Source: a virus. Taken from it: a DNA stretch of 27,303 bases. Positions 5,285 through 27,303 of the stretch are shown here, in pieces. The position numbers and the translations under genes are program-made. The stretch is taken from IMG/VR virus record IMGVR_UViG_3300034980_000440, positions 1 to 27,303 of that record, one strand, 5' to 3'. The notes under the pieces were generated by a model that saw only the letters and a program-made list of their open reading frames with translations, was not told where the DNA came from and made no database searches. How positions within the stretch are numbered: position 1 is the stretch's first letter; the number at the start of each line of letters is the position of its first letter.

Positions 5285-5710
5285 ATGTCTGTTCTCGTAC
5301 CCACAAGAAGCGATCGAACGGTCGCTGTCGTTTGGACTGGTGATCAGTCCGTAAAGGAAAAACCGTCAAAGACAAAAGACAAAAAGGCGGGAGAGGGTGG
5401 AACGAGGGTCATACCATTACAAGATGCGAAGGACGCGACAGGAGCGACAGTGTTCCACGTTCGAGCACTTAACAATCGAGAACTCGAGTTTTTTTCCCAC
5501 TATCTCGCAAAAGACGGTCGACCCTTTGCAACGGATGCCGCGATTGCCTCTGTTCAAAAGGTGGTCGACGGTGGGACGGTTATCGAAGAAGAAGCGCAAC
5601 TGGTCGAGCTTATCACACAGCGGATGCCGTTCGATTGTCTTGCCTCCCTTGCGCAATTTATTATCGAACTCACGACCGGCGGCAAGATCAACGAAGCGGG
5701 GGATCTTTGA
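5285..5710 (+). CDS. Tail assembly chaperone, short form (lambda gpG-like)
   Basis: The product has 141 residues; GGAG sits six bases before the ATG. Residues 1-45 are a Lys/Gly-rich leader, and residues about 55-141 are a helical domain. It sits directly before the tape measure gene, where long-tailed phages encode a chaperone in two forms, the longer made by ribosomal frameshifting. Here the reading frame ends in CTT TGA at 5705-5710, and a second open frame without its own good start continues at +1. The short form would wrap and stabilise the tape measure during tail assembly, as known for lambda gpG. The assignment rests on position, size and the frameshift layout. Confidence 0.8.
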   Translation: MSVLVPTRSDRTVAVVWTGDQSVKEKPSKTKDKKAGEGGTRVIPLQDAKDATGATVFHVRALNNRELEFFSHYLAKDGRPFATDAAIASVQKVVDGGTVIEEEAQLVELITQRMPFDCLASLAQFIIELTTGGKINEAGDL

Positions 5711-19659: not shown

Positions 19660-19706
19660 AAAGCAGAGACAAAACCAACAACCAAACCAGAAAAGAACCC
19701 GATCAT
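19644..19706 (-). CDS. Possible 20-residue membrane peptide
   Basis: An ATG at 19706 overlaps the stop of the ATPase gene (ATGA), the coupling pattern used repeatedly in this phage. It opens a 20-codon frame that encodes an almost wholly hydrophobic helix (starting MIGFFSGLVVG, ending in Trp-Val-Arg-Asn). The stop is just after the GTG of the next gene. AAGGA lies about 12 bases upstream. The peptide is long enough to cross a membrane once and lies in the same operon as the endolysin. The same frame also extends back to 19832 and there encodes a lipobox-like segment. It could be chance. Confidence 0.3.
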   Translation of the reverse strand: MIGFFSGLVVGFVSALWVRN

Positions 19707-20458
19707 TTTTTTGTTTTTTCCTTTTTTAACGCATCCCGAAAGCAATCCAAGAACGACGAATAGCACAAAGGAAGCACGGGGGGAAGAACGTCCGTACGGT
19801 CTTTTGCTATGTGGCTTGGGGTTGGTTGGCATTCAAGAACCCGATCTCCGGTTCGGAGATCCATTGCGCAGCGAAGAATAAGATCTGCGGCTCCCTTGGT
19901 TGCTCGATACGCGGATCCCCCGCTTGGGACGTGCCTTGTAAAGACCTCCCCTTTTGGTCGGTCCATCATTCCAACCTCTCGACCGGTTGCGGCTTCGATC
20001 GTCACGTCTTTTTCGTGACTGATTAGAATAACCCCATAGGGTCCGGACATTAGGGTTTCGAGTGCCTCTGTGACCTGTTTTTTCACAAATCCCCACAGTG
20101 CCGCGGAACTTCTTTGTCCGTGGAGCTGATCGACGTTGTGCCGTTTTTCTGTGTATTCAACAGCGAGTCGCGTGACGTTGTCGAGAGTGTCAACAACGAC
20201 GGTTCCCCAATCGTGCGGAGTGGTCGCAAGGTGAACGCAAAGTGCTCGAAACTCTTCCCAGTCTTTGACGGTCGATCCGTCTTCATGGACTTGGAAGACA
20301 GAAAGCCCGGTCAGTCCTGCTTCGGTCGCAACGAAAAGCGGATCTTTGAACATAGATGCAAAGGTGCTTTTTCCGATTCCTTCTTTTCCGTACAGGATAA
20401 CCTTCATGCGGTGCGGGTCGAATTGTCGGGGGGTTTTGTTTTTCGGTAGTGTGATCAC
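19703..20458 (-). CDS. Sak4-like RecA-fold recombination ATPase
   Basis: The product has 251 residues and begins at a GTG that overlaps the exonuclease stop, with AAGGAG upstream. A P-loop GKEGIGKST lies at residues 24-32, and the Walker B strand GTVVVD ends at Asp-90. A further strand ILISHEKDV (about residue 150) fits the sensor motif of AAA_24/Sak4-type RecA-like proteins. These proteins bind single-stranded DNA and help anneal or exchange strands in phage recombination. Pairing with a YqaJ-type exonuclease is a known arrangement. The tail is Lys-rich. Family assignment is by motif and context; a DNA-packaging or partition ATPase is much less likely. Confidence 0.8.
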   Translation of the reverse strand: MITLPKNKTPRQFDPHRMKVILYGKEGIGKSTFASMFKDPLFVATEAGLTGLSVFQVHEDGSTVKDWEEFRALCVHLATTPHDWGTVVVDTLDNVTRLAVEYTEKRHNVDQLHGQRSSAALWGFVKKQVTEALETLMSGPYGVILISHEKDVTIEAATGREVGMMDRPKGEVFTRHVPSGGSAYRATKGAADLILRCAMDLRTGDRVLECQPTPSHIAKDRTDVLPPVLPLCYSSFLDCFRDALKKEKTKK

Positions 20459-21471
20459 GGTTTTCTCCTTCTAATAATAAGCCGACGAGATGAGGGTTCA
20501 GAACACGCATCGAAGATCTCGGGGTGCTCCTCTTTGACTTTCTTTGAGTTGAGCCGGGGCGAGGTTGGTGATTTGTAAGACACTCCCCAACCCTCCCCGA
20601 GATCTGCGGGTCCTTCGATGAACCCCTTTTCATGATCGGACATTTCAGATCGGATCCGGTTTTTGATCTCGTTTAACTCCTGATCGAGTTTGCGACGTTC
20701 GATCATGATCGTTTCGTATCTTTCCATGTTTTGGGAGCATTCGGAGGACAACAGGTTCTCACCTTCTCGAAGTTGGGTTGGTTCGGTTTCTTTTAATGTC
20801 CTGGTGACATCGTCGGACCCGTCGATCAACGACTTCGGATCGCGTCTTTTGATGGTGTCTTGGAGGTGCTCGCAGGCTTCCACAATGCGTTCGAAATACT
20901 TGCGATCGCGTTCGAGATAGAAGCAACGGGTCGTCGCGTCCACGACTGCGAAAACGTGACCCCAAGATCGATCCATGACTTCCATTTCGAGTTGAACCTG
21001 CGCTTCTACATATCGCGGCAACCCTCCCTCCCACTTTTTGCGACCGTTTGAAGTGACGAGTTTAAATTGCGCAACCCCCTCGCCTCGCTCCGGGTGTGCA
21101 ACGAGGTAATCCGGAGTGGCGACGAGATAATCGATCTCCGGGTGTTGATATGTGGGAGCCTTTCCCCCGATCTCGAGTTCCGGATATCTCTTTTCATACA
21201 TACGCGCTATTCCGTCTTCGAACTCTCTCCCGCATTCTGCGGGGCAATATTGATCGATCTCGAACTCTTCCTGGTCGTACTCGAGAGATCCGACAATTCG
21301 GTGATATATGCGAAACGCAGATCCCCAAGGTTGATCCTCTTTTGGCCAGTCTTCGAACCAAGCGAGGATCGCGCCAACGTCGCTTGCTCCGATGTATGGG
21401 GCGCGGAGTTCTTTCCATTGTTCATACGTGACATCGAAGGGAATGTGGACTTTTGCCGGTTTTCTTTTCAT
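20455..21471 (-). CDS. YqaJ/lambda-exo family recombination exonuclease
   Basis: The product has 338 residues from the ATG at 21471, which has GAGGAAAAG just before it. Family motifs: IGASDVGAIL (residues 27-36), CGREFEDG (80-87, with Glu-85), TPDYL (Asp-121) and VAQFKLV (Gln-135, Lys-137). These match the order of the PD-(D/E)XK core of YqaJ and lambda exonucleases, which chew the 5' strand of DNA ends to prepare single strands. The usual Glu of E-x-K is Gln here (codon CAA), which deserves a check. Residues about 235-310 form a charged coiled coil not typical of the family's core. The stop overlaps the ATPase start, so the two are coupled. Confidence 0.85.
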   Translation of the reverse strand: MKRKPAKVHIPFDVTYEQWKELRAPYIGASDVGAILAWFEDWPKEDQPWGSAFRIYHRIVGSLEYDQEEFEIDQYCPAECGREFEDGIARMYEKRYPELEIGGKAPTYQHPEIDYLVATPDYLVAHPERGEGVAQFKLVTSNGRKKWEGGLPRYVEAQVQLEMEVMDRSWGHVFAVVDATTRCFYLERDRKYFERIVEACEHLQDTIKRRDPKSLIDGSDDVTRTLKETEPTQLREGENLLSSECSQNMERYETIMIERRKLDQELNEIKNRIRSEMSDHEKGFIEGPADLGEGWGVSYKSPTSPRLNSKKVKEEHPEIFDACSEPSSRRLIIRRRKP

Positions 21472-21633
21472 CTTTTCCTCGTTTGGTGGGCTTTTGATCT
21501 TAGTGCTTTGGGTTGCGTGGCGCAATAATTGCGCAAGAGCAAACCAAGGGAACTCCCGCCAGTGTTGACTCGGGCGTTTTGGCTTTTTTTTAACGCTTGA
21601 CACGTTGCACGGTTGCAAAGTAAAGGGTGGAAG
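21472..21633. promoter_or_regulatory. Divergent control region
   Basis: The region separates the minus-strand recombination operon from the plus-strand replication operon. It carries a perfect palindrome GCGCAATAATTGCGC (21520-21534), nearby TTGCG/TTGCA elements (21513-21517, 21604-21608, 21612-21616), TTGACT at 21565-21570 with TTTAAC 18 bases on, and an exact TTGACA at 21597-21602 whose -10 is poor. I see it as an early divergent promoter region under a repressor. Exact promoters are not certain. Confidence 0.5.
21520..21534. promoter_or_regulatory. 15-bp palindromic operator candidate
   Basis: GCGCAAT and ATTGCGC are perfect reverse complements around a single central base. The site lies between two divergent operons, about 50 bases from the exonuclease start, and fits a dimeric helix-turn-helix repressor or Cro-like protein. 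The gene just downstream (21670) encodes such a protein. Binding is inferred. Confidence 0.55.
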
Positions 21634-22189: not shown

Positions 22190-22761
22190 TGGGGAAGCCG
22201 AACCTGTGGAAGCCTGTCCCGTGTTCTTGGATGCGTGATATCAAATGGCACCAACTGACAGCGAAAGCGCGGGATCTGCTCTTTCGTCTTTGGATGGGTT
22301 CGGACGACGGGAAGATCCGGATTGCTCCGGGCTCGAAGGGGCTCGATTATAGATCGATCCAAGTTCTCGCTGTAACGCAGGAACGAGGCTCTCGCCTCGC
22401 CAATCAGATCGAAGAACTCATACAATCCGGCTTTCTATTGGAGCAACCCACAGAGGACGGATCGAAGTGTCTCGAGTTGCGAGACTTCAACCGGTTCGTT
22501 CCTCGTTGGCGTGTCAAACGGGATCCAACCCGTCGCAAAAGTGGCACCAACTCGGCAAAAGGAGATCAACGATCCCGCGAGGTTGGATCCTCTCCTGTAT
22601 TGTATAGTTCTCTAAAGAGAACTAAGAACAGGGAGGGAGCCGTTATCGACGGCGCTCCCTCTCCTGTTATGACAGAAACAACCCAGAAAACCATCCGGAA
22701 CTTGTTCGCAAAGAGGGGGATCCCCTTGCCTGCGGAACTTGGGAAAGGGGGGGAGGAGTGA
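22189..22761 (+). CDS. Replication-initiator-like winged-helix protein
   Basis: The product has 190 residues from ATG 22189. Residues about 12-95 show the pattern of phage replisome organisers: a helix (KWHQLTAKARDLLFRLWM), strand, then a second helix with ERGSRLANQIEELIQSGFLLEQ, and a strand LELRDFN, consistent with a winged helix. The C-terminal half is basic and probably disordered. It lies before DNA methyltransferases and the DnaB helicase; a short protein in this place often loads the helicase at the origin. The coding sequence contains a perfect palindrome and short repeats (22589-22667) that could be part of an origin. Function is inferred from pattern and context. Confidence 0.6.
   Translation: MGKPNLWKPVPCSWMRDIKWHQLTAKARDLLFRLWMGSDDGKIRIAPGSKGLDYRSIQVLAVTQERGSRLANQIEELIQSGFLLEQPTEDGSKCLELRDFNRFVPRWRVKRDPTRRKSGTNSAKGDQRSREVGSSPVLYSSLKRTKNREGAVIDGAPSPVMTETTQKTIRNLFAKRGIPLPAELGKGGEE
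22605..22624. repeat. 20-bp perfect palindrome inside initiator-like gene
   Basis: TAGTTCTCT and AGAGAACTA are perfect reverse complements separated by AA. The palindrome lies within coding sequence of the initiator-like gene and is flanked by two copies of CCTCTCCTGT (22589-22598 and 22658-22667). It could be a protein-binding site or part of an origin; lambda has its origin inside the O gene. Confidence 0.7.
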
Positions 22762-23624
22762 TGACAGCCGGAACTTGTGATCGACTGTGGGATCTGGTGT
22801 TGGGGGATTGCCGGGAATTGATCAAAGAGATCCCAGACGGAACCGTTCAAACGTGTATGACTTCCCCCCCTTATTGGGGTTTGAGAGACTACGGGAGCGA
22901 CGATCAGATAGGACACGAGCCAACCCCGGTGGAATACGTCGAGGAGTTGTTGAGCGTGTTCGCGGAGGTGCGTCGGGTGTTGCGGGATGATGGCACGCTG
23001 TGGATCAACTTGGGCGACTGCTACGAAGACAAGAACGTGGTAGGCATTCCGTGGCGCGTGGCTTTTGCGTTGCAGGATGCCGGGTGGTGTCTTCGGTCCG
23101 ATATCGTTTGGCACAAACCAAACCCGATGCCCGAACCCGTCACAGATCGACCCACGAAGGCTCACGAATACCTTTTTCTTCTCTCCAAGGGTCCGCGGTA
23201 CTTTTATGATCACGAGGCAATACAAGAACCGGCGACCGGTAAGAAAAGCGGAAACATCGAGAGATTGCTTGGCATAGATTGTGATCGACCGGGTTCCGAG
23301 AGGGGAAGGGGGATCCCGTGGTCGGGGTCGGAGTTCAGAAACAAGAGATCCGTATGGACGATCCCGACGCAACCCTTCCACGGTGCGCACTTCGCGGTTA
23401 TGCCCGAGGCACTTGTGGAGCCTTGCGTTCTTGCCGGGAGTCGTCCGGGGGATCTGGTTCTCGACCCGTTCGCAGGTGCAGGAACGGTGCTACTTGTAGC
23501 GACGAAGAACGATCGCAGATCGATAGGGATGGAACTTTCTCCCGAGTTTCGAGACATCGCAAGGTCTCGTATCTTGGAGTGGGAGAACACGGACGAGGCT
23601 CGACAGGGCTCGCTTGGGATTTAG
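22761..23624 (+). CDS. DNA methyltransferase 1 (beta-type order, TSPPY)
   Basis: The product has 287 residues from ATG 22761; a GTG one codon earlier lies too close to the GGAGG site. The catalytic motif IV is TSPPYW (residues 34-39) and the SAM-binding motif I is DPFAGAGT (about 235-242). That order is the beta class, which methylates N4 of cytosine or N6 of adenine; the (T/S)PPY form is frequent in N4-cytosine enzymes, so base specificity is open. No target-recognition domain or restriction partner is seen, so it acts as an orphan enzyme that may protect phage DNA. It is paralogous to the next gene at both ends. Confidence 0.88.
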   Translation: MTAGTCDRLWDLVLGDCRELIKEIPDGTVQTCMTSPPYWGLRDYGSDDQIGHEPTPVEYVEELLSVFAEVRRVLRDDGTLWINLGDCYEDKNVVGIPWRVAFALQDAGWCLRSDIVWHKPNPMPEPVTDRPTKAHEYLFLLSKGPRYFYDHEAIQEPATGKKSGNIERLLGIDCDRPGSERGRGIPWSGSEFRNKRSVWTIPTQPFHGAHFAVMPEALVEPCVLAGSRPGDLVLDPFAGAGTVLLVATKNDRRSIGMELSPEFRDIARSRILEWENTDEARQGSLGI

Positions 23625-23633
23625 GAGACAAAG

Positions 23634-24977
23634 ATGACAGACGGAACATGTGACAAGTGGCAGATTATACAAGGAGACAACCGGGAGGTCTTGAAGACCT
23701 TCGAGGACAACACGATCGATGCCGTGGTGTGTGATCCACCTTATGAACTCGGATTCATGGGGAAGGCTTGGGATTCAACCGGGATCGCTTACGACGTCGA
23801 CCTGTGGCGGGAAGTATATCGAGTTATGAAACCGGGCGCACACTTGATCGCGTTCGGGGGTACGAGGACGATCCATCGTATCACGTCGGCGATCGAGGAT
23901 GCCGGGTTTGATATCAGAGACACGATCTCTTGGCTACAGTGGCAAGGGTTCCCGAAGTCGTTGGACGTTTCGAAGGCTATCGACAGACAGAGACACGACA
24001 GAGAGGAGATCCTTCGGGTGACTGGTTGGATCGCGGATCGTCGGGATGCGTCCGGTTTGACGAATAAGGATATCGACGATCGGTTTGGGTTTCATGGTAT
24101 GGCGGGACATTGGACTTCGAACGCCTCACAGCCGAGCATCCCAACACTTGAACAGGTGCCGGAGTTGCTCGACCTTCTCGGGGTGCAACTCGAAGAAGTC
24201 GAAGAGGAGATCCGGGATCTTCTGTGGACTTTGAACACTCCAAGCGGGGAGCCTGGGAAGGATTGGTGGAAGCGTGAAGTGGTGGGTAAGCTGGCTGCAC
24301 CCGCGTCAAGCATCTATTCGCAAGGGGCTGTTTCGTTGCCTTCTAGCGTTCCGATCACAACGTCCGCAACAGAGGACGCGAAGAAGTGGCAAGGGTGGGG
24401 CACGGCACTCAAACCGGCACAAGAACCGGCGACCCTGGCACGCAAACCCCTCGCGGGAACCGTGGCGCATACTGTTCTCGAGTGGGGTACGGGGGCTTTG
24501 AACATCGATGCTTGCAGAGGTGTGGAGGGTTGGCCCGGTCCCGCAGTCAGAGAAAGCCCGGACGGTCGATGGCCGGCGAACATATACGCAACCCCCAAGC
24601 CTTGCCGGGGAGAGAGGGAGGAGGGTTGTCGGGGGCTTGCGCCGGTCCAGAGGGAAGAGGTCACAGGGAGAAAGGAAGGATCCGCAGGTCAGAATCACGC
24701 ACGAAGCGGGATGACTCGCTCCGGGGATATCCACAACCATCACCCGACGGTGAAGCCCATAGCCTTGATGCGTTGGCTTGTTCGGCTTGTCACTCCTCCC
24801 GATGGTGTGGTGCTCGACCCGTTCGCGGGGTCTGGTACGACGATCGCGGCTGCGGCTCTCGAACATCGGCGCGGTATTGGGATCGAGTTGTCGGAAGAGT
24901 ATGTGGAGATCGCTCGGGCTCGGGTCGAGGCTTGGGAGCGAACAGACGACGCAAGGCAAATAGGTTTACAATTCTGA
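23634..24977 (+). CDS. DNA methyltransferase 2 with HTH-like insert (DPPY)
   Basis: The product has 447 residues with AGGAG before ATG 23634. Motif IV is DPPY (residues 34-37) and motif I is DPFAGSGT (about 395-402), beta-class order, likely adenine N6. Between them lies about 150 extra residues compared with the preceding paralogue. Residues about 118-185 contain two helices and a GMAGHWTSNASQPSIPT stretch that look like a helix-turn-helix-type module; residues about 185-250 are acidic and then Trp-rich. The insert could serve as target-recognition domain or as a regulator that binds DNA. The first nine and last 50 residues resemble those of methyltransferase 1, so the two likely arose by duplication. 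Confidence 0.88.
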   Translation: MTDGTCDKWQIIQGDNREVLKTFEDNTIDAVVCDPPYELGFMGKAWDSTGIAYDVDLWREVYRVMKPGAHLIAFGGTRTIHRITSAIEDAGFDIRDTISWLQWQGFPKSLDVSKAIDRQRHDREEILRVTGWIADRRDASGLTNKDIDDRFGFHGMAGHWTSNASQPSIPTLEQVPELLDLLGVQLEEVEEEIRDLLWTLNTPSGEPGKDWWKREVVGKLAAPASSIYSQGAVSLPSSVPITTSATEDAKKWQGWGTALKPAQEPATLARKPLAGTVAHTVLEWGTGALNIDACRGVEGWPGPAVRESPDGRWPANIYATPKPCRGEREEGCRGLAPVQREEVTGRKEGSAGQNHARSGMTRSGDIHNHHPTVKPIALMRWLVRLVTPPDGVVLDPFAGSGTTIAAAALEHRRGIGIELSEEYVEIARARVEAWERTDDARQIGLQF

Positions 24978-24994
24978 GCAACGGTGCTCGGGAT

Positions 24995-25070
24995 GGGGTC
25001 TTGTTTTTATTCGACCGGGACCCCGTGGGAGATCTCCCCTTTTTCGCCTCTGGGGGGGTCTCCTTCTTTT
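24995..25070 (+). terminator. Structured gap: possible terminator/attenuator before helicase gene
   Basis: The 111-bp gap contains GGGGTC/GACCCC (24995-25000 with 25019-25024), a perfect palindrome GGGAGATCTCCC (25027-25038) followed by CTTTTT, and a second G run with TCTCC (25052-25063) followed by TTCTTTT. Several competing hairpins can form, each followed by T residues. It fits a partial terminator that lowers expression of the helicase or an attenuator. A possible in-frame extension of the helicase through this gap lacks support. Confidence 0.5.
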
Positions 25071-25088
25071 CGAATGTTGGAGGACAAG

Positions 25089-26426
25089 ATGGGCGCGAAA
25101 GTAATGCCAATACGAAAGAACGAGGGGTGGAAGCCTCTCCCGAGCGCAGAGGAGACAGAGTCCGCGGTTGTCGGAATCCTGGTGGCACACTTCCACGATC
25201 GAGAGTTGCCGGGGGATGTGGGGGCGCGGTTGAGGGGTGATCTGTTTCACAATGAACCACAGCGATCAATCGTTGCCGCAGTGCTCGAGGTGGGAGCGTT
25301 TCCCCCGTTGGTCTTTGAGCACTTGAAGCAATCAGGATCAAAGGTTCGGCTTTCTCAGATTTTGCAATATGCCGAAGAAGCCTTGCCTCTTCTCGTTCTT
25401 CCGAGGTTGATCGACAGTTTGCACACATACGTCGAAGCCCGGAGCGCAGTCCGCGCAACGCGGGAGGCTTCGGAGTTGGCGAGCAAGGGAAACGCACAGG
25501 AAGCACGCAAGGTTCTCGGGGAGTATTGCGCGACACCCCCGCAAGGTGGGGACGGGCTCGAAGCGTGGAAGCCTGCGACCGGGTCTGTTGATGCCGCGAT
25601 CGAAAGGATCGAACGACTCGAACGAGGAGAGAACGACGGATGGATCACGGGTCTCGGGTACTTCGACGAAGTCGTTAATAGTTCGCTTGGTGGAGGCTTG
25701 CAACCGGGAACGCTTGGTGTCGTTGCGGGTCGTCCGGGGAGGGGGAAGACCACGTGGACGGTTGAATTACTGTGCGAAACACTAGCCAGGAACCCCGGCA
25801 ACGAGCACCGCGAGGGGTTGTTGTGTGCGTTCTTTTCCTTCGAGATGGTCGCGGATCAGGTGGCGCAAAAGGTATTAGCACGCCACACGCCACCGACGGA
25901 CGGTGTCGGACCTTTGAAGGCTTGCGATCTTTCGGCTGCGGCACGTTCTTCGGTGGCATCGTCCCAGCTCGCTAGGCTTTGGATCAATGATTCGTCGGGA
26001 ATGTACATAGACGAGATCATCGACGCGGCTGATCGTTTATACTTGCAAGGGTTCCGGGTTTTCGCTTTGGACTATATCCAACGTGTCAAACTTGACGTTC
26101 CTCCGGAGTTGTCGCGGTTCGGCTTTGGGGAGGTATCGAAGAGGCTTGCAACGCATGCGAAGGATCGGGGGGTGGCTTGGGTGGCTTGTTCTCAACTTAA
26201 CCGGAGCGCGGAGAATCGGAAGGTTCCGACGATGGGGGATCTGAAAGAAAGCGGAGATATTGAACAGGACGCATCGTGGATCGTTGCGTTGCATACTAGC
26301 CAAGTTGAGCCAGACGATCACAAGCGGGTCGGGTTCTACGTGTTGAAGAATCGGTTTGGCTCGGGTTCATGGTCGAGGGAGTTGATCGCAGACTGGGGTC
26401 GGCAACGGTTTCGGGTAAGTTATTGA
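25089..26426 (+). CDS. dnaB: Replicative DNA helicase, DnaB family
   Basis: The product has 445 residues from ATG 25089, supported by GGAGG seven bases upstream. Residues about 15-110 look like the helical DnaB N-terminal domain. The RecA-fold motor follows: Walker A GRPGRGKTT (residues 214-222, Lys-220), a Walker B-type strand ending in Asp-328 (FALDYIQ), and SQLNRSAENR, then GDLKESGDIEQDAS, the usual DnaB H3/H4 motifs, and KNRFGSG near the end. As a hexamer it unwinds the replication fork 5' to 3'. Length is near the 430-470 of bacterial DnaB. No separate helicase loader or primase is seen in the window. Confidence 0.92.
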   Translation: MGAKVMPIRKNEGWKPLPSAEETESAVVGILVAHFHDRELPGDVGARLRGDLFHNEPQRSIVAAVLEVGAFPPLVFEHLKQSGSKVRLSQILQYAEEALPLLVLPRLIDSLHTYVEARSAVRATREASELASKGNAQEARKVLGEYCATPPQGGDGLEAWKPATGSVDAAIERIERLERGENDGWITGLGYFDEVVNSSLGGGLQPGTLGVVAGRPGRGKTTWTVELLCETLARNPGNEHREGLLCAFFSFEMVADQVAQKVLARHTPPTDGVGPLKACDLSAAARSSVASSQLARLWINDSSGMYIDEIIDAADRLYLQGFRVFALDYIQRVKLDVPPELSRFGFGEVSKRLATHAKDRGVAWVACSQLNRSAENRKVPTMGDLKESGDIEQDASWIVALHTSQVEPDDHKRVGFYVLKNRFGSGSWSRELIADWGRQRFRVSY

Positions 26427-26476
26427 GGATCCCCGCTCGTCGGTGTTATAACACACGCAACGAGGTGGGGTGTCTT

Positions 26477-27082
26477 ATGAGGAAGAAGGCAAAGAGCACG
26501 GTAGGGATTCGGTTCGACGATGAACAGTTTCGAGAACTTGAGAAGATATTGAAAGCGGTTAATGGGTCCGACGGGCTCGAGGGTGGACGGTTGACCAGGT
26601 CCGAACTTGTACGAGTTTTGATTGGTCGAGCCTTGGAGGATATGACGATGGGAGATCAATCTAGAACAATGCGCGACAGTGTGAGAACACCGAAAGAGGA
26701 AGACAGAGAGGCAGAGGAAGCCAGACTCGCAGAGGAAGCAAGCCGACGCGGTAAGATGTCGAGGGCGAAGGGTGCAAGGTTTGAAAACGTGATCGCAAAA
26801 GAGATCAACGAGGCTTGCGACGGTGCCGACGCGAAGCGGGGTTTCCAGTTTCGCGGGGGTGATAACGTCCCCGATGTCGAGTGTCCTCTGTTGCATATCG
26901 AGTGCAAACGTGGCAAACGTCCGAATCCTCGGGCGGCATTGGCGCAAGCAATTGAGGGATGCCCCAAGGGAAAACTTCCGATCGCATTGATAAGAGATGA
27001 CCGGCGGGAGACTTTCGCGGTCATGTTGTGGGAGGACGTGTTGTCCTTCCTTTCGGAGTGGTGGGAAGCCACAAACAAATAA
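26477..27082 (+). CDS. RHH-PD-(D/E)XK nuclease fusion (junction resolvase-like)
   Basis: The product has 201 residues from ATG 26477, preceded by GAGGTGGGG. Residues about 7-56 form a ribbon-helix-helix domain: strand TVGIRF, helix EQFRELEKILKAV, and helix TRSELVRVLIGRALEDM. Residues about 72-95 form an acidic coiled linker. Residues about 96-195 form a PD-(D/E)XK nuclease: Glu-103 (GARFEN), Asp-133 (NVPDVE), and Glu-142-x-Lys-144 (IECKRGK). The arrangement of small nuclease core and flanking basic segments resembles Hjc-type Holliday-junction resolvases, which would resolve recombination or replication intermediates before packaging. Such a fusion with RHH is unusual to me. The stop is followed at once by the next ribosome site. 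Confidence 0.75.
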   Translation: MRKKAKSTVGIRFDDEQFRELEKILKAVNGSDGLEGGRLTRSELVRVLIGRALEDMTMGDQSRTMRDSVRTPKEEDREAEEARLAEEASRRGKMSRAKGARFENVIAKEINEACDGADAKRGFQFRGGDNVPDVECPLLHIECKRGKRPNPRAALAQAIEGCPKGKLPIALIRDDRRETFAVMLWEDVLSFLSEWWEATNK

Positions 27083-27100: not shown

Positions 27101-27303
27101 ATGAACAAAGAACAAACAGCGATAATTCTTGCGCTTTTAACTGCGGTCGGTAGCGCGGTGGCTTCGTATGTGGAGCACGTCGATCCGTCCGAACCGCAAC
27201 AGGAGATCGCGTATCCGCTTGTGGCGAGTGCTCTCGAGGCTTTGGAAGCCCGAGCGGATGATCTCGAGTTTCGTTTGGTTGCGATAGAAGAAACCCTTGA
27301 AGG
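27101..27303 (+). CDS. One-TM coiled-coil protein, 3' end outside window
   Basis: ATG 27101 has GGGAGAACAGG just upstream. The 67 residues seen before the window ends start with a short polar stretch, then a hydrophobic helix (residues about 7-22, IILALLTAVGSAVAS), then Pro-rich and Glu/Leu-rich heptad-like sequence. It is shaped like an inner-membrane spanin or accessory holin, similar in plan to the protein at 15338. The end of the gene is not visible, so function stays open. Confidence 0.7.
   Translation, partial: MNKEQTAIILALLTAVGSAVASYVEHVDPSEPQQEIAYPLVASALEALEARADDLEFRLVAIEETLE

Follow-up and report, generated by a model that had tools for sequence, protein, structure and literature searches.

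A single open reading frame of a virus record (IMGVR_UViG_3300034980_000440), located at positions 26477-27082 (+), encodes a protein of 201 aa in which a predicted ribbon-helix-helix (RHH) DNA-binding domain precedes a nuclease domain of the Hjc type. The 27303-base stretch that was analysed is hereafter called the window. The protein combines two known kinds of domain in a new way, and we give a probability of about 45% to the reading in which it is an Hjc-type resolvase that regulates itself, with an RHH dimer that would bind its own promoter, as in PutA.

Coding is continuous over the whole frame. Its ATG follows the stop codon of a DnaB-like helicase gene after a gap of 50 nt and is preceded by a ribosome-binding-like stretch, GAGGTGGGG, at 26462..26470 (+); inspection by eye revealed no evident stretch of this kind before the alternative in-frame ATG at 26369. 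Codon usage was scored after training on 12 other genes of the window, whose own scores were 0.08-0.26. In the same forward frame, the RHH part scored 0.14, the linker 0.18 and the nuclease part 0.12, and the other five frames were negative in all three parts alike. One frame is therefore coding across RHH domain, linker and nuclease, which makes a frameshift join or an antisense artefact unlikely as the origin of the fusion. An error of assembly or sequencing that joined two genes is extremely improbable as well: the protein is known from a single virus record, with no independent copy found in viral contigs, database phages or plasmids, but the frame and the coding signal are the same over the whole ORF, which has a clean start and a clean stop.

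The RHH domain covers residues 1-57 (26477..26647, +), with a strand at about residues 8-13, helix A at 15-30 and helix B at 41-57, as delimited by phrog_4738, hhalign and the structure models. Residues 1-62 match phrog_4738 over almost the full length of the profile (E 0.00095; 0.013 with the whole protein), and no Pfam family was matched by residues 1-62 or 1-92 at E values up to 10. The identity of phrog_4738 itself was checked by a profile search of 299 genomes of one phylum, 47 of which had a match. Twenty phrog_4738 loci were fetched, one (L118) was omitted for a stop in frame, and 19 stretches were aligned, some with ends shifted by a few codons. Since 17 of these 19 recruits match Pfam RHH_1 (PF01402), phrog_4738 is an RHH family. 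Several of the recruited stretches presumably belong to longer proteins, NikR-like in look.

Aligned by hhalign with the profile of the 19 RHH domains, residues 1-62 obtained a probability of 62% and a score of 25.2, versus 16.7 for the best of 300 shuffles. In the alignment, TVGIRFDDE falls on the RHH strand and LTRSELVRVLI on helix B, and about 8 extra residues stand between the two helices relative to the 19 domains, which would give a longer loop. A plain HMM of the same 19 domains was less discriminating, and we regard hhalign as the stronger control for the RHH call: residues 1-62 scored 13.1 bits with the HMM against 10.9 for the best of 5000 shuffles, their best single stretch, at 9.5, was level with that of the best shuffle, also at 9.5, and a score of 7.6 placed the whole 201-aa protein below three shuffles. 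In both structure models the helices are found at 15-29/30 and 41-57/60, and the strand is weak or disordered. It is disordered in the full-length model, as would be expected for an unpaired RHH strand, although this is not proof. PDB fold searches with the single-sequence model of the N-terminus (mean pLDDT 71.6, one chain) listed no RHH structure; as an RHH folds as a dimer, a search with one chain speaks clearly neither for nor against the domain. By sequence statistics, residues 1-57 are best read as a real but divergent RHH domain, in agreement with the sequence-only reading, which had called one at the N-terminus.

Compared with RHH domains of the NikR, CopG and Arc type (PF01402, phrog_4738), the N-terminus shares the helix B pattern (T/N)-R-S-E-x-(I/V)-R and, in the profile alignment, a putative strand-helix-helix order, but these domains do not have the insert between the helices. 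In the NikR, CopG and Arc architectures, the RHH domain is combined with a ligand-binding domain or with nothing, not with a nuclease. Here it is followed by a charged linker rich in Glu and Arg (residues 58-92, 26648..26752, +), defined from the coding frame and the model; in the full-length model, residues 74-113 form one long helix, by which the linker runs into the nuclease.

The nuclease domain covers residues 93-201 (26753..27079, +), as defined by phrog_244, invariant columns and a match to the Hjc fold. A PHROGs profile search matched residues 89-195 to phrog_244 with an E value of 4.8e-12. The Pfam family PF24608 (PDDEXK_15) scored 17.4 bits with the whole protein and 19.7 with the domain alone, below the Pfam cut-off of 27. 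NCBIfam gave no match, and a sequence search of the PDB nothing useful. Residues K98, G99, E103, R121, Q124, D133, E142, K144, Q157 and A158 are invariant in 39 aligned sequences, and the catalytic E103, D133 and E142-C-K144 are all intact in the fusion protein. The core is thus the same as in phrog_244 and PF24608 nucleases, including K98-G99, Q124 and Q157-A158 besides the E, D and E-x-K positions. One detail would speak against strict equivalence with the relatives, namely the residue that follows the first catalytic Glu, which is Asn in the fusion protein and Arg in 9 of 10 aligned relatives; this position also varies among the more distant relatives of the 39-sequence alignment.

A full-length AlphaFold2 model, built from the 39-protein alignment, had block-mean pLDDT values of 96-98 over residues 91-200, except for 87 at residues 121-130. 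Its best matches in the PDB were 1gef, with Z 8.6 and an rmsd of 2.1 over 82 residues, and 2wcw, also with Z 8.6 but an rmsd of 2.7 over 85 residues, and the top eight rows of the fold search were all Holliday-junction resolving enzymes; the margin is small, as best Z values of 7-8 are typical of this tool for models without a clear match. Foldseek also ranked Hjc 1gef first, with an E value of 5.8e-3, so that no PDB match at E<=0.001 was obtained for the full model, whereas 14 predicted viral proteins of BFVD matched at E<=0.001, several of them named Holliday junction resolvase. The Pfam Hjc family, PF01870, was matched neither by the whole protein at E values up to 5 nor by the nuclease part at E values up to 10. 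By its predicted fold, the nuclease half is probably a resolvase of the Hjc type, with junction cleavage as its presumed activity. The proposal that the core was resolvase-like, with E, D and E-x-K in place, stands. PHROGs labels phrog_244 'RusA-like'; the folds closest to the model are those of Hjc, one relative (L002) passes the Pfam Hjc cut-off (22.4 versus 21.1 bits), and the label looks misleading.

The predicted fold and the catalytic motif are shared with archaeal Hjc and with Hjc_15-6 of Thermus phage Tth15-6, for which junction cleavage was demonstrated and the residues E10, D40, E53 and K55 are described (PMC8805305). The spacing from the first Glu to the Asp is 30 residues in both the fusion nuclease and Hjc_15-6 (PMC8805305). 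Unlike the fusion protein, whose cleavage activity is presumed, archaeal Hjc and Hjc_15-6 have no added DNA-binding domain. A nuclease of the phrog_244 kind is ordinary phage equipment.

To place the fusion among its relatives, viral contigs were scanned, with 1, 427, 18 and 351 loci found and 1, 80, 18 and 80 of them kept, with much overlap. Three genome contigs, three database phages and whole genomes from two groups (9 of 282 and 16 of 398) gave further relatives. Pooling yielded 103 distinct nuclease cores, that of the fusion protein included, with one ORF per core. Only the fusion and L003 have at least 45 ATG-started residues before the core, so that 101 of the 102 distinct relatives are without such an extension, and that of L003 matched no RHH family in a PHROGs scan. 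The aligned relatives start at or near an S-R-x-K-G motif, which is where the nuclease half begins in the fusion protein. Unlike the latter, relatives of the phrog_244 and PDDEXK_15 kind carry no RHH domain; counted from their first possible start, they are about 100-190 aa long (235 in L003). The unusual order of domains, and the view that the N-terminus is not part of a known resolvase family, are both borne out by this comparison, and a relative with the same fusion, which had been proposed as a thing to look for in other phages, was not found among those compared.

When any start codon is allowed, extensions of at least 40 residues appear in L003, L009, L047, L053, L075, L076, L078, L084, L087, L091 and L105. 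Nine of these 11 loci were scanned against PHROGs (L091 was omitted, as was L076, whose extension as printed is that of L075); all nine matched phrog_244 and none an RHH family. The whole-genome loci L107-L116 and L137-L153 were judged by the ATG rule only. An apparent N-terminal match in L091 (query 51-201) was rejected, as it stems from an overlapping upstream exonuclease-like gene in another frame; the start at the nuclease motif comes after that gene. The HMM of the 19 RHH domains found no RHH in any locus with default filters, that of the fusion included, and its sensitivity is therefore too low for a negative result to prove absence. When the filters were switched off, the fusion ORF came 14th, and some short RHH-like ORFs close to other nucleases ranked above it. 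The statement that the relatives are without RHH thus rests on their absent or short N-terminal extensions. A regular-expression screen for RHH neighbours missed the known one of L002 and was discarded.

Database searches gave a similar picture. The whole protein found one close relative in viral contigs, which matched residues 71-193 only, and three database phage records at E<=0.01, in all of which the alignment begins no earlier than residue 92 or 95. A search restricted to the nuclease half, at E values up to 10, gave 43 phage records, most with insignificant E values; with the first 61 residues as query, the best E value was 2. Plasmids gave no match for the whole protein, and for the N-terminus nothing better than an E value of 1. 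In BFVD, a 233-aa protein of Bacillus phage BCD7 (UniProt J9PUL0) aligned over 206 columns, and two further matches likewise aligned over 200 columns. The comparison supports the view that the fusion of RHH and nuclease is rare, and the BCD7 protein could be a second case. Uniqueness is not claimed, since 80 loci were kept per large scan and the comparison does not extend to those database proteins that have a long N-terminus, such as that of BCD7. Among the papers listed from the open-licence literature, none reports the fusion of an RHH domain to a PD-(D/E)XK nuclease, whether of the Hjc type or another, and no paper on PDDEXK_15 was found there. RHH partition proteins and resolvases are described as separate proteins in phages (PMC8026635), and fusions of RHH to HEPN, as well as RHH antitoxins, are reported (PMC2701414).

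Might the RHH domain be the degenerate remnant of a neighbouring small repressor gene, joined recently and by accident and with hardly any function, in which case the enzyme may start at Met94? Met94 (ATG at 26756) opens the MSRxKG motif, which is the start point of several relatives, and the fusion was seen once. Small RHH genes also occur next to such nucleases and are a plausible source of a join, as an RHH gene overlaps the nuclease gene in L002 and a CopG-like ORF lies upstream of it in L074. However, codon usage is still of the coding type through the RHH domain and the linker, and the ribosome-binding-like stretch stands before the start at 26477, whereas the nearest one before Met94 (GAGGAA, 26732-26737) is 18 nt away. 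We consider such an accident quite unlikely.

The neighbouring genes themselves deserve description. In L002, a separate RHH gene of 63 aa (5398-5589) overlaps the end of the nuclease gene and matches RHH_5 (E 0.00096) and phrog_2685 (E 8e-7). Short ORFs with a helix B-like motif, GKSISEI(V/I)REA(L/I), are found upstream of the nuclease in L058 (2507-2674), L059 (2491-2670) and L074 (2477-2680). Their best CopG-like match is phrog_7325, with E values of 0.069, 0.0046 and 0.00032, respectively, and they are probable small RHH genes.

Inspection of the 50-nt gap before the fusion gene revealed, by a palindrome scan, a perfect 12-bp palindrome, GTGTTATAACAC (26443..26454, unstranded), which is a candidate RHH operator. 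The palindrome spans TGTTATAAC, a stretch similar to an extended -10 element: the -10-like hexamer TATAAC (26447..26452, +), identified with the pattern TGNTATAAY, is extended by a TG at 26444-26445. A -35-like hexamer, TTGAGG (26423..26428, +; 4 of 6 positions), was read from the sequence 18 nt before it, overlapping the dnaB stop codon. A sigma-70 scan, which demands a T at position 6, lists no site at the palindrome. The window contains three matches to TGNTATAAY on both strands versus 0.36 expected, two of which are this site on both strands.

The palindrome came to attention post hoc, and its significance was estimated in several ways. Of the 23 perfect palindromes of at least 10 bp in the window, only GTGTTATAACAC lies wholly outside the genes of a rough, hand-made list of 34. 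With this list, which leaves 4.6% of the bases outside, chance would place about one palindrome of at least 10 bp outside genes (23 x 4.6%) and about 0.3 of at least 12 bp; a palindrome of at least 12 bp is present in 0.86% of 50-nt segments. Allowing up to three mismatches, the window has eight matches to GTGTTATAACAC, itself included, versus 4.83 expected, which is within chance. The next-best copy, with two mismatches, is found at 26679-26690, inside the fusion gene itself. These observations are suggestive of an operator by which an RHH repressor would control its own gene, while chance could give one such site. No relative with the fusion was found in which the candidate operator might be conserved.

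The best-documented precedent we saw for an N-terminal RHH domain on a self-repressing enzyme is the trifunctional PutA, in which this domain is reported to make the enzyme both a dimer and the autogenous repressor of its own regulon (PMC5293562). The likeness lies in an N-terminal RHH domain carried by a (here presumed) enzyme; in contrast, the enzyme of PutA is unrelated, and for the fusion protein an operator and repression are only suggested. By analogy, the gene product would be a junction-resolving nuclease of the Hjc type, belonging to the replication and recombination set of the phage and bearing an RHH domain at its N-terminus. Two chains would pair through their RHH strands, in keeping with an Hjc dimer, which is two-fold symmetric too. 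When free, the protein would bind GTGTTATAACAC and shut off its own promoter, so that the nuclease would remain scarce. As branched DNA accumulates during replication, the protein would be drawn to it and might cut the junctions symmetrically, and repression would be relieved. Dimerisation, operator binding, self-repression and junction cutting are all steps that we infer. If self-repression proved true, the phage would have a compact device for holding back a dangerous nuclease as long as there is no branched DNA, and the principle known from PutA, in which an enzyme doubles as its own repressor, would apply to a recombination nuclease as well.

The sequence-only reading had suggested that the RHH domain either directs the nuclease to an operator or to the junctions of the phage, or lets it control its own expression. 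The latter suggestion receives some support from the palindrome over the extended -10-like element; targeting to operators or junctions finds no direct support, the matches to the palindrome being within chance. A combined version, in which the resolvase is anchored at operators, seems unlikely to us. There, the two-fold RHH dimer would read a phage palindrome while the two-fold Hjc dimer cuts branched DNA; branched DNA would titrate the repressor off the promoter and so set its output, and resolution would be favoured near RHH sites.

More probable than this, though still doubtful, is that the RHH domain is an auxiliary arm for DNA binding and dimerisation that contributes little, if anything, to repression. 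It would hold two Hjc-type cores in register and raise the affinity for DNA, so that branched replication intermediates are processed more efficiently. RHH domains are described as pairing into dimers (PMC10853773), junction-resolving enzymes are reported to work as dimers (PMC8805305), and fusion of an RHH domain is reported to turn a monomeric enzyme into a dimeric one (PMC5293562). The single long helix that joins linker and nuclease in the model fits with such an arm, and so does the finding that the window holds no second operator-like site beyond chance. Against it, the large majority of relatives without an N-terminal extension, together with L003, whose extension matches no RHH, indicates that the core manages without an arm, and the palindrome over a promoter-like element would be left unexplained. 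If only this explanation were true, the RHH domain would be a new accessory to a resolvase that is common in phages. The self-repressing resolvase and the dimerising arm alike lead to predictions that are simple and can be tested with a single short gene and a single 12-bp site.

A role of RHH in DNA processing, and not only in repression, has a parallel in a different system. DndE is described as having two tandem RHH domains and as a partner of a DNA-modification ATPase, and is argued to be without nuclease activity of its own (PMC10853773). One could also imagine that the RHH domain targets the nuclease to particular sites, either recombination or packaging sites of the phage, or sites in the DNA of a competing phage or of the host. 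An intact nuclease that carries a domain for reading sequence has the layout of a targeted nuclease, and two methyltransferases encoded upstream of dnaB could protect the phage's own DNA. However, the matches to GTGTTATAACAC give no repeated target beyond chance in the window, the core resembles the structure-selective Hjc, and the relatives are standalone enzymes, as is the one near a DnaB-like helicase gene in L003. Such targeted cutting appears very unlikely.

The gene lies in a setting of replication and recombination genes. For the DnaB-like replicative helicase directly upstream (24984..26426, +; Pfam DnaB_C 2.4e-34, phrog_19 9e-51), a search of viral contigs found no close relatives. 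At 19703-21618, on the strand opposite to DnaB and the fusion (-), lie genes for a Sak4-like annealing protein (phrog_124, E 1.3e-34) and a RecE-like exonuclease (phrog_434, E 6.1e-49). A junction resolvase fits this set of recombination and replication genes (RecE-like, Sak4-like and DnaB). Nuclease relatives in contigs of Sandaracinus, of a Polyangiaceae bacterium and of Rubrivivax adjoin genes that, judged by eye, seem to serve DNA metabolism.

The two adjacent DNA methyltransferases upstream of dnaB are of the N6/N4 type according to Pfam (22758-23624 and 23634-24977, +). The second has an internal insert of about 200 residues, as its match to phrog_67 spans residues 7-433 versus 224 profile positions. 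Downstream of the fusion, the next open frame (27101-27303) is cut by the end of the record; with its hydrophobic start and acidic tail, it resembles a membrane protein by eye. In three bacterial MAG contigs (L086, L087 and L088) and in the viral L091, the nuclease gene follows a RecB-like gene and a DEDD-type exonuclease-like gene (by eye), an order that is apparently a conserved cassette.
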